Shown here: positions 1,131-64,000 of the stretch, piece by piece
Numbering within the stretch: the stretch's first letter is position 1
Layout: every line of letters begins with the position of its first letter
Source of the DNA: Amblyomma americanum
Lineage: Eukaryota > Arthropoda > Arachnida > Ixodida > Ixodidae
DNA length: 64,000 bases
Direction of reading: 5' to 3'
Assembly: GCF_052857255.1 (NCBI RefSeq)
Contig: NC_135497.1
Location: 346,658,799 to 346,722,798, forward strand
Notes under the pieces: generated by a model
Told to the model about the DNA's origin: nothing
The model's input: only the letters and a program-made list of their open reading frames with translations
Databases searched by the model: none
Translations under genes and position numbers: made by a program

Positions 1131-1877
1131 AAGCATCATATACATCTGAATGAGTGAATATTCGACGAAGCCACTGGATTCAAGTCGCTGCTCGTGTGTT
1201 GTGAACATCCTTTTGCATGTATCTGCTTCTGTCAGTCTTCTCGCAACTTTTCTTAAGTAATTCACTTCCCTCAATTCACCCCCAGCTTGTCATGCTCCAT
1301 TCTTCTCCCTGTCTATTCTGACTTAAAGCTCCCCTTGTCCACTAAAAATGGCCAAAGATCGTCTGTGGAGTAGTGACCCTTATTTGCGTTGCACAAACAT
1401 TATTCCTTTCTTTCCCTCCAATGTTCCACGAAACTTGTTGACAACGCTGCAAGCCATCCATCCTATGCCCACCAGGGTTCCAAAAATACTTAACTAGTTC
1501 AGGGTTTTAAAATTTTGATCTTGGAGTCACTGACGAAAGTTATCGTTAGCCTGAAATGTACGTACTTTTGTCGATGAAAATGGCCTTTCAAATTAAGCCT
1601 TTTTTCACTATGTCGAATGTGATAAAGTGATGTAAAATAGTACTTTGAGCAGCTCCAATGTAAAAGTCTGAAAGCAACAAAAACATCACATAAAGCTGCA
1701 ATAGAGGCATTATTTCTGAAAAAGTCATGAATTTCACATTGCCCTGCGCCAAAATTTTTTAGCCTTCTCCGCGCTTGAGGGAGATTGTGCGCACTGCTTC
1801 TCCTGTCGAATAGGTGTGATTTTGCACGGCAAATATTCCAGGGGCCAGAAGCCAGAGGCTGACGTCACTAATTATCG

Positions 1878-1956
1878 CCTATATATATATATATATATAT
1901 ATATATATATATATATATATATATATATATATATATATATATATATATATATATAT
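1878..1956. repeat. (AT)n microsatellite at Gypsy A 3' end
   Basis: Pure alternating AT of about 79 bases ends exactly where the 3' LTR of Gypsy A begins (minus strand). The left/right arm homology also ends here, so the tract marks a rearrangement breakpoint. Reading-frame calls across it are runs of Tyr-Ile and are not genes. Confidence 0.95.
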
Positions 1957-2089
1957 TGTAACAGTTGTTACACTCAAAAGGAACTGCAGCGGCTGAACGA
2001 GGGCACCAGAGAAACGGACCTACACTTCAGCGTCGTCTACTTCTAGAGGCTGCGAACTCTTTCTTCTTCTACTTCCAACCCTCGTGTCA
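1957..2089 (-). repeat. Gypsy A 3' LTR (133 bp) and polypurine tract
   Basis: On the minus strand the LTR starts TGACACGAGG, directly after a polypurine run GAAGAGGGGGCAG (complement of about 2090-2102), and ends AACTGTTACA at 1957 against the AT tract. Start TG and end CA are as expected. Its internal word GGAAGTAGAAGA is shared with the Gypsy C LTR, so A and C are related lineages. The 5' partner LTR is not present. Bases 2107-2217 between pol and the polypurine tract are noncoding. Confidence 0.85.
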
Positions 2090-2217
2090 CTGCCCCCTCT
2101 TCAGGAGCATCGCCCCGATGCGGTGTTACCGTCAGACCGAATAGCGGGGAGAAAAAGTGTTCAAGAGGTACACCACGAGTGTGACATCACGGAATATGAC
2201 TACATGCAGCCGGAAAG

Positions 2218-62155: not shown

Positions 62156-62163
62156 TTTATATA
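62156..62163 (-). promoter_or_regulatory. TATA box of the defensin-like gene
   Basis: TATATAAA on the minus strand. Transcription would start about 30 bases downstream (near 62128), giving a short 5' leader of about 30 nt. No clear kappa-B site was identified by eye in the 140 bases upstream. Confidence 0.55.
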
Positions 62164-62756
62164 TTCCATGCCGAGAAGACTAAAGAAAAGTTTCTTACTA
62201 AGAACTTCCATATACTTGTCGGGCCATTCTCCCATATTTAGCTATGATTTGAGGAAAACAATGGGCCAAGACATCTGGCACTACGGATTCTCTGCACATC
62301 CGCACTTATCTTGCTTTTTAAAACTCTGGAACGAAAGAAACGTCCAAGAAATTTATAGTTTTTTCAGAGGGATGAGTCGAGTTTTCTGCAACAGCCCTCT
62401 TAATGACAAGTTTAGAACCTCGATTTTTTTTGTTGCATACTGGGAAGGAACCAATGCACCTGTTATTGGGCAGAACAGGTTAGTATCTTAAAGCATACAC
62501 GCACTCTTGGACCGTGATTGTCATTTCACTATAAAAGACTGCGGCACCATGGCGCTGTCGCATCGTTTCTTCCGTCGGAGATCTGCGTTGATCGATGAAA
62601 CGTTCAAGTATTGTGCGACAGGATTGCGAAACTCTCTTTATCACGCACCCCTGTCAGAAATGCCTTCCGCAGCTCTGTCGAAGAACCAGGATAGCCATCT
62701 CAATATATAAATAGGCGATATTTAGTGACGTCAGCCTTTGGTTCCTTTTTTTATAG
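62164..62756. other. Upstream region of the peptide gene, no further gene recognised
   Basis: Unique to the right arm up to about 62718, where pairing with 1878 begins. A plus-strand ATATATAAATAGG near 62702 is TATA-like, but no exon follows. The insertion target of the LINE fragment lies at 62740-62750. Confidence 0.45.
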
Positions 62757-63268
62757 CGTTGTTTATTGCCTCTGGGCATAAGGGGAGTTAGGAAGAAAAG
62801 AGAAAGGAAAGAAAATAGTGAGTGGGTGTTAAATAGAGCAACAAAGGTGGGCCGATCTAATGAATGCGACGAGGGAGCGGTGATGTGTCCCCTGCGTCCA
62901 ATAAATATATGAGGAAGGGTTGTCTGGGTGGAGACCCACTGCTGCCAGGTGGGGAATTCTAGTTGGATTCAGTGCCGGGCAAACACCCAACAAATGGTGA
63001 ATGTCTGCCTCAGTGTCTTGCGAGTTGCAGACTGGACATCCTAGGCGGGGATATAAGTGGCGAAATTGAGGCCACGTCCGAGTTACGGCAGGCGTGAGGG
63101 CAACCCAGGCCCGAATGCTCCGGGACACAACCTCCTCTGCACGGGTAAGACCGCGGGGGAGGGTTATCGCACACGGAGGGACAAGAGCACGTGTGCGGCG
63201 CCGGAGATGTTCCTTTCTTGTGAGTAGGAGGGTAGCGTCATCCATACTGAGGAATTGCGGCATTGATG
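62757..63268 (-). pseudogene. 5'-truncated LINE 3' fragment, right arm only
   Basis: A minus-strand frame reads HLYPRLGCPVCNSQDTEADI then HHLLGVCPALNP, a C-x2-C...H-x4-C end motif of non-LTR ORF2, to a stop near 62829. The 3' end is AATAAACAACGCTATAAAAA at 62757-62780. The flanking GCCT(T/C)TGG(T/C)TTC-like words at 62742 and 63270 suggest an imperfect target duplication of about 12 bases. The left arm has the uninterrupted site near 1840-1850. Confidence 0.75.
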
Positions 63269-64000
63269 GCCTCTGGCTTCTGGTCCCTGGAACATTCGCC
63301 GTGCAAAATCCCACCTATTCGACATGAGGAGCATTGTGCACAATCTCCCTCAAGCGCGGAGAAGGCAATAAATTTTTGCGCAGGACAATGAGAAATTCAT
63401 TATTTTTTCAGAAATAATGCCTCTATTACATCTTTATGTGAAGTTTTTATTGCTTTCAGAGTATTGCTTTGGAGCTCCTCAAAGTAATATTTTACAGCAC
63501 CTTATCACATTCGATATACTGGGTTGAAGGTTTAATTTGAAAGGGCATTTTCATTGACAAAAATACGTACAAATAAGGCTAACGATAATTTTCGTCAGTG
63601 ACTCCAAGATGAAAATTTGAAAAGCCTGAACTAGTTAAGTGTTTTGGAAGCGTGGTGGGCGTAGGATGGACGGCTTGCAGCGTTGTCAACAACTGTCGTG
63701 GAACATTGGAGGGAAAAAAAGGAATAATGTTTGTGCAACGCAAATAAGGGTCGCTACTACGCAGGCGATCTTTGGACATTTTTAGTGGACAAGGGGAGCG
63801 TTAGGTGAGAATAGACAGAGAGAAGAATGGAGCATGACAAGAGGGGGTAAATCGAGGGAAGTGAATTATTTATAAAAGTTTAGACAAGACAAACAGATAA
63901 AATCAGATATATGAAAAAGGATGTTCACAACACACGAGCAGCGACTTGAATCCAATGGCTTCGTCGAATATTCAGTCTTTCAGATGTATATGATGCTTGT
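63269..64000. other. Outer right arm, no gene recognised
   Basis: Reverse complement of about 1131-1840 with many small differences. A 66-residue frame at 63579-63779 is similar in the left arm only as DNA; no family motif. Confidence 0.5.

Follow-up and report, generated by a model that had tools for sequence, protein, structure and literature searches.

The 64,000-nucleotide stretch of the tick Amblyomma americanum analysed here (contig NC_135497.1, C1 in the following, positions 346,658,799-346,722,798; "the window") lies, without a gap, at the core of a giant imperfect palindrome that does not stop at the window edges. The palindrome, which measures at least 478 kb, probably arose by inverted duplication; its arms have diverged by about 11% and are cut by transposons, short patches were likely recopied between them by gene conversion, and the right arm holds the only complete copy found of a likely defensin-like gene, of which the left arm keeps a probable remnant. 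C1 comprises 560,970,318 bases of an assembly of 2,560,209,026 bases in 429 contigs. Positions are given in window coordinates; values below 1 and above 64,000 lie in the left and right flanks on C1. An earlier note, made from the window sequence, had described the palindrome; exons 1 and 2 of the gene, the conversion-like tracts and the true size of the palindrome go beyond it.

Self-BLAST of the window yielded eight inverted blocks of 0.13-2.5 kb with 84-95% identity, all in collinear order. The left arm spans 1131-19650 (18.5 kb) and the right arm 24984-63998 (39 kb), with a spacer of 5.3 kb between them, as the earlier note had it. Its statement that the palindrome fills almost the whole window is right for the outer and inner limits, but only about 9 kb of the window arms are homologous (8,951 columns in nine pairs after realignment, counting a small overlap at 17607-17771 twice) and the palindrome runs past both edges. 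Most of what remains of the arms consists of transposons private to one arm, and two exons are missing from the left arm. The window contains zero N. Arms and spacer are composed as follows:

1131-1859, plus strand: left outer block; partner 63269-63998 reversed (self-BLAST 63998-63269); extends left to -1018
6164-6378, plus strand: left block with a shared piece of a short interspersed nuclear element (SINE); partner 40281-40438 (self-BLAST pair 6164-6295/40438-40306)
6409-7750, plus strand: left block carrying exon 3; partner 38837-40174, p=0.049 (self-BLAST pair 6408-7753/40176-38832); two full-length matches in the whole genome
13049-15003, plus strand: left block; partner 36890-38836, p=0.111 (self-BLAST pair 13048-15003/38836-36890)
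15006-17431, plus strand: left block; partner 28572-31006 (self-BLAST 31006-28572)
17431-19650, plus strand: inner left arm; partners 27585-27926, 26042-27490 and 24984-25573 (self-BLAST pairs 17431-17771/27926-27585, 17607-19064/27490-26042 and 19061-19650/25573-24984)
19651-24983, no strand: spacer; tRNA-type SINE from 19654 and remnant of a long interspersed nuclear element (LINE) at ~20.0-23.96 kb, then an inverted SINE at ~24.01-24.24 kb and ~740 bp without element label; limits by eye
24984-31008, minus strand: inner right arm (self-BLAST and realignment)
36890-40438, minus strand: part of the right arm holding the partners of 6164-7750 and 13049-15003
63269-63998, minus strand: right outer block; extends right to 66156

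A SINE stands at the inner end of the left arm, and the spacer is mostly transposon.

When 100 kb were added on each side, the best chain consisted of 27 inverted collinear blocks with 41,107 aligned bases and 3,506 mismatches, pairing -85,764 to 19,650 on the left with 24,984 to 143,074 on the right. As a control for orientation, the left and right sides were compared within these limits: 28 inverted high-scoring segment pairs of at least 400 bp were found (47.5 kb) and 0 direct ones. The comparison served as a chance control as well, and the inverted repeat of the earlier note was confirmed. Farther out on the right, 144,001-148,000 pairs in inverted orientation with C1:346,349,400-346,353,368 (90% over query bases 1-3999, of which ~86-1436 are a dispersed repeat), and 162,444-163,799 with C1:346,344,733-346,346,102 (88%). 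By these outer pairs the paired sequence covers C1:346,344,733-346,822,597, from which the size of at least 478 kb is taken; it is a lower bound, neither end of the palindrome having been reached.

The two arms are not of equal length. In the interval from its partner block at -85.8 kb to that at -305 kb, the left arm is longer than the right by ~220 kb, and this extra sequence contains more copies of the palindrome's own flanking blocks. Copies of block A (-84.8 to -80.6 kb) lie at 346.355, 346.402 and 346.482 Mb, the latter two partial, all in the plus orientation as in the left arm; the extra left-side copies of blocks B and C occur in both orientations. On the right, a minus-oriented set of block copies is located at 347.000-347.023 Mb. 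At 349.66-349.74 Mb blocks D, C, B and A recur as a collinear, partly incomplete minus-oriented set, and A and B are present again at 344.46 Mb. Several neighbouring non-transposon copies of large blocks with 84-90% identity, parts of which are dispersed repeats, make this a segmental-duplication cluster. The additional 220 kb of the left arm would then be the product of later local amplification. The earlier note had pointed to amplified gene families as one setting of such palindromes. For the gene found here this is not supported: in 2.56 Gb, exon 3 is matched twice and a single full copy of the exon 1-2 region was found; the local amplification concerns flanking DNA. No host genes were recognised by eye in the amplified flanking DNA, where the long open reading frames likewise look transposon-like by eye. 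Three inner stretches (6.4-7.75 kb, 15.7-16.7 kb and -16.3 to -11.7 kb) have two full-length copies each; the last has one partial third copy besides.

Within the window, the arms differ by private transposon insertions. The target duplications that the earlier note had reported for them were found again for the two Gypsy elements, one in each arm, as was its common anchor with terminal inverted repeats (TIRs). The following list gives these elements with their long terminal repeats (LTRs) and target site duplications:

7751-13048, plus strand: Gypsy element, left arm only; 182-bp LTRs with 4 differences; target site duplication TTAT (by eye)
~31009-36885, plus strand: Gypsy element, right arm only; LTR K=0.085; target site duplication ATAT; duplication and ends by eye
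~1957-6163, minus strand: Gypsy-type remnant, left arm only, following a TA repeat; label by eye, ends approximate
~17473-18092: TIR-type element common to both arms; right copy ~27002-27889 with an inserted SINE-like sequence
~25574-26041, no strand: TIR element, right arm only; TTAA flanks, ends approximate

For the Gypsy-type remnant no LTR pair was found. It stands opposite 22.8 kb of the right arm, which is where exons 1 and 2 are situated.

Divergence between the arms is distributed as a mosaic. Overall, 9.1% of 40,804 aligned columns in 28 blocks are mismatched. Ten low-divergence tracts of 192-2,316 columns stand out from 22 segments listed: nine score above all 500 mismatch shuffles and the tenth was reached by 1 of 500, and the other 12 segments, reached by 10 to 418 of the 500, were dropped. 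The tracts occupy 15% of the aligned columns and contain 90 mismatches in 6,251 (1.4%), against 3,623 in 34,553 (~10.5%) outside. Kimura two-parameter distances are 0.0145 inside and 0.113 outside (block bootstrap 0.107-0.119). The G+C content is 48.8% in the tracts versus 45.8% outside, the direction expected of GC-biased conversion. Four of the tracts are:

7185-7380, partner 39206-39397: 192 columns, 0 mismatches
7426-7659, partner 38927-39160: 234 columns, 3 mismatches (the tract reached by 1/500 shuffles)
15964-16527, partner 29463-30026: 564 columns, 3 mismatches
-32,652 to -30,335: tract of 2.3 kb, arms 98% alike

A likely interpretation of this mosaic is that short patches were recopied between the arms by gene conversion. 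Possibly, purifying selection on exons or regulatory DNA could also have produced the tracts in otherwise freely diverging arms, and the two longer tracts of the above list allow these explanations to be compared. For the 2.3-kb tract, C1 carries five other full-length copies with 84-85% identity and a sixth in two pieces with 88% and 77%, so this sequence can evidently change freely. The start of the 564-bp tract falls within a dispersed repeat (15767-16382); the other copies of that repeat are 84-86% alike (38 listed, as best candidates). Within this repeat, mismatches between the arms number 23 in the 188 columns ahead of the tract edge and 2 in the 419 columns beyond it. Such an abrupt change inside an unconserved transposon copy fits gene conversion and is unlike the effect of selection. 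What selection has on its side is that exon 3 of the gene lies in a 100-column identical stretch (reached by 186 of 500 shuffles), that the tracts contain some reading frames, 90-119 residues long, which both arms keep open, and that the comparison with full outgroup copies covers only two of the ten tracts. These frames, however, appear uncharacterised and overlap on both strands; none was convincing as a coding frame. We therefore consider selection without conversion quite improbable.

The gene itself has three exons, was found complete in the right arm only and runs on the minus strand. Its exons are joined in frame across GT-AG introns, and the coding sequence has 195 nt including the stop. 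Its parts and the left counterpart of exon 3 are:

62098-62059, minus strand: exon 1, coding part, with a signal-peptide-like start
61408-61367, minus strand: exon 2
39950-39838, minus strand: exon 3, right copy, with stop; AATAAA at 39790-39795
6634-6746, plus strand: exon 3, left copy, open, with acceptor and poly(A) signal

The AATAAA of the right gene sits 45 bp past the first base of the stop codon, and intron 2 (39951-61366) measures 21.4 kb. The predicted product has 64 residues; its start resembles a signal peptide, and a six-cysteine module, CX6CX3CX9CX4CXC, forms its end. The six cysteines follow the order of invertebrate cysteine-stabilised alpha-beta (CS-alpha-beta) defensins (C..CxxxC..C..CxC). 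Tick defensins have a CX7C loop, and the fifth loop of the module is shorter here. Against PDB, the left exon-3 peptide matched micasin (E=0.0023) and, with E=0.23, 2ru0, an entry under the name arthropod defensin. AlphaFold, run on the single sequence of the right exon-3 peptide, gave a helix and two strands with a predicted local distance difference test of 80.6 and a predicted template modelling score of 0.45. The peptide of the right gene is predicted to be secreted and to adopt a cysteine-stabilised alpha-beta fold, and it is likely an antimicrobial, defensin-like peptide.

A number of results speak against the latter assignment. With the whole right precursor the PDB matches were weaker (micasin E=0.041, 2ru0 E=0.40). 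In Foldseek the top match was micasin with E=0.075; none of the 144 matches reached 0.001, and they include scorpion channel blockers sharing the fold. No defensin family was found in Pfam up to E=1 with either the exon-3 frame or the precursor, and no protein shared three 5-residue words with the exon-3 frame or the spliced precursor. In view of the weak Foldseek values and the channel blockers, the fold is better supported than the antimicrobial role.

Of this gene, the left arm retains the 5' flank (1131-1859) and exon 3; exons 1 and 2 were not found there. The exon 1-2 region has a 161-bp fragment at 349.66 Mb in addition to its one full copy. This fragment belongs to a third arm copy, which is broken near the gene at C1:349,661,785-349,664,965: the 161-bp piece, from upstream of exon 1, adjoins a fragment of block D there in opposite relative orientation. 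Comparison of 111 bases of exon 3 showed 4 differences between the two copies, and two of these change a residue. We consider the left copy a likely dead remnant whose exon 3 region was likely kept similar partly by conversion. Since the exon-3 peptide has only two matches in the 2.56-Gb genome, exon 3 was rejected as a member of a gene family, and a search of 264 kb for other CS-alpha-beta motifs returned, apart from exon 3 in its two copies, only one poly-Cys run.

On a common scale of pairwise K, the arms outside the tracts stand at 0.113, the LTRs of the right Gypsy at 0.085, those of the left Gypsy at 0.022 and the tracts at 0.0145. Its LTRs show the left Gypsy to be clearly younger than the arms (4 of 182 sites vs 10.5%, Fisher 4e-5); this is the only firm part of the order of events.

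Taken together, the most likely course of events is that one chromosome segment was duplicated in inverted orientation, which would have created the palindrome. It would then have been eroded by transposons and by one or more losses in the left arm, the arms would have traded short patches through conversion, and flanking parts would have been amplified further. Instead of one inverted duplication, members of a segmental-duplication cluster could have come to face each other through separate events. Such a piecewise origin would agree with the extra block copies: at 346.35-347.02 Mb blocks A, B and C recur in either orientation, and further copies lie at 344.46 and 349.66-349.74 Mb. Yet the blocks are collinear throughout, the outer blocks X and Y continue their order, and the three inner stretches have no full-length copies besides the two in the arms; we regard a piecewise origin as rather unlikely. 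The palindrome could also be an assembly artefact, either because a contig was mirrored or because two haplotypes were fused head to head. Palindromes are difficult to assemble, there is a gap of 100 N in the left arm, and the joins are known from the assembly alone. We consider an artefact highly improbable, since outside the tracts the arms diverge by ~10.5%, private LTR elements carry target duplications of their own, the window has zero N and exons 1 and 2 are confined to one arm. The earlier note's argument that this is not a simple mirror artefact thus stands, as far as the assembly shows.

Several observations weigh against the single inverted duplication with subsequent conversion that we prefer. 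Every join rests on the assembly, which has the mentioned gap at -54,141. On the left side, blocks B and C have several copies that face the opposite way, so that a single inversion followed by tandem copying is too simple a history. The shuffle test presumes an even rate, and the test against constraint with full outgroup copies covers the 2.3-kb and the 564-bp tract out of ten. As for the ages, the right Gypsy is younger than the arms by point estimate alone (30/375, p=0.13), and the ages of the tracts and of the left Gypsy are indistinguishable (p=0.34).

Further elements occur in the right gene within the outer portion of intron 2, labelled by eye except for the GIY-YIG and RVT_1 matches:

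40439-61366: outer part of intron 2, with SINEs, Penelope-like, Gypsy and LINE elements
~41979-47166: Penelope-like element whose long terminal copies are inverted and 88-95% alike
~47275-49783: Gypsy (label by eye)
~54178-59259: LINE

The element at 41979-47166, which we take to be Penelope-like, has a GIY-YIG match of 19.6 bits, slightly below the Pfam cut-off of 22.6 (E=0.0011). For the reverse transcriptase piece of the LINE (56933-58603) the named matches are all tick proteins, from Amblyomma, Dermacentor, Ixodes, Rhipicephalus and Haemaphysalis, among the best 120 of 569. At 40406-41938, several tRNA-type SINE copies lie adjacent to each other beside a TA repeat. A tRNA-like sequence, an anchor of the earlier note, is indeed present in both arms (16186-16257/29733-29804, ARAGORN), inside a dispersed repeat. 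As a tRNA gene it did not hold: the selenocysteine tRNA that ARAGORN proposed in both arms was rejected because the left copy scores 20.6 against the Rfam tRNA gathering score of 29 and because of its site in a dispersed repeat. In the right flank, 90491-92732 is a tandem array with a period of 312 bp, ~98% alike and outside the aligned blocks. One long element occurs twice, at -98433 to -88756 and 127844 to 132416, 96-98% alike and in opposite orientation; the copies are out of palindrome order and hence likely separate insertions.

Palindromes with arm-to-arm conversion are already known; what is distinctive here is that the arms are diverged, transposon-cut and still patchily alike. Primate X palindromes are likewise large inverted repeats around a spacer with arm-to-arm gene conversion, but their arm identity exceeds 99% (simulations used a median arm of 37 kb and 99.953%; PMC8981503), whereas the tick arms are ~91% alike with conversion-like patches in 15% of columns. 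Human Y palindromes such as P6 also have inverted arms and conversion between them, with an arm similarity above 99.9% (PMC3723533); in the tick, transposons interrupt the arms, and a single host gene was recognised. The tick locus shares with these systems long arms in collinear inverted order on either side of a short spacer and arm-to-arm conversion, the latter as suggested by mosaic divergence with two of ten tracts tested against constraint. The near-identity above 99% that is typical of mammals is not found, with 9.1% mismatch over the 40,804 columns. Hence it works like, yet is not, a near-identical palindrome of the mammalian type. Among the results listed in our searches of the open-access literature, none dealt with a tick palindrome.

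The gene can be compared in the same way. Like the ancient invertebrate-type CS-alpha-beta defensins of ticks it has six cysteines, a signal-peptide-like start and a predicted helix with two strands (PMC9208123). The soft-tick defensin genes of that paper have four exons, unlike the three coding exons found here, where a match to a family model is also absent.

Outside mammals, palindromes on a sex chromosome are known from willow, for which sex linkage is reported (PMC7023750); the tick locus is placed on the X by analogy only. Dermacentor andersoni has 11 chromosomes and XO males, and its longest chromosome, with almost twice the coverage in females, is the X (PMC13105059). C1 has 561 Mb, against ~223 Mb as the highest coordinate in the matches on any other contig (C3). 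By this analogy C1 is likely the X chromosome. It is conceivable, if on balance doubtful, that we are looking at a decaying giant palindrome on a tick X, a chelicerate counterpart of the mammalian sex-chromosome palindromes, in which transposons split the homology into islands, conversion survives as patches and one unique immune-peptide gene remains.

The locus also documents a defensin-like gene that had no relative in the protein searches. The near-identical palindromes of mammalian sex chromosomes, the best-known cases of conversion, conceal their own history. The arms of the tick are diverged enough for the duplication, the insertions of transposons and the conversion-like tracts to be placed on one divergence scale. 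By this it becomes testable what ends conversion between arms, for example the loss of uninterrupted homology to transposons.

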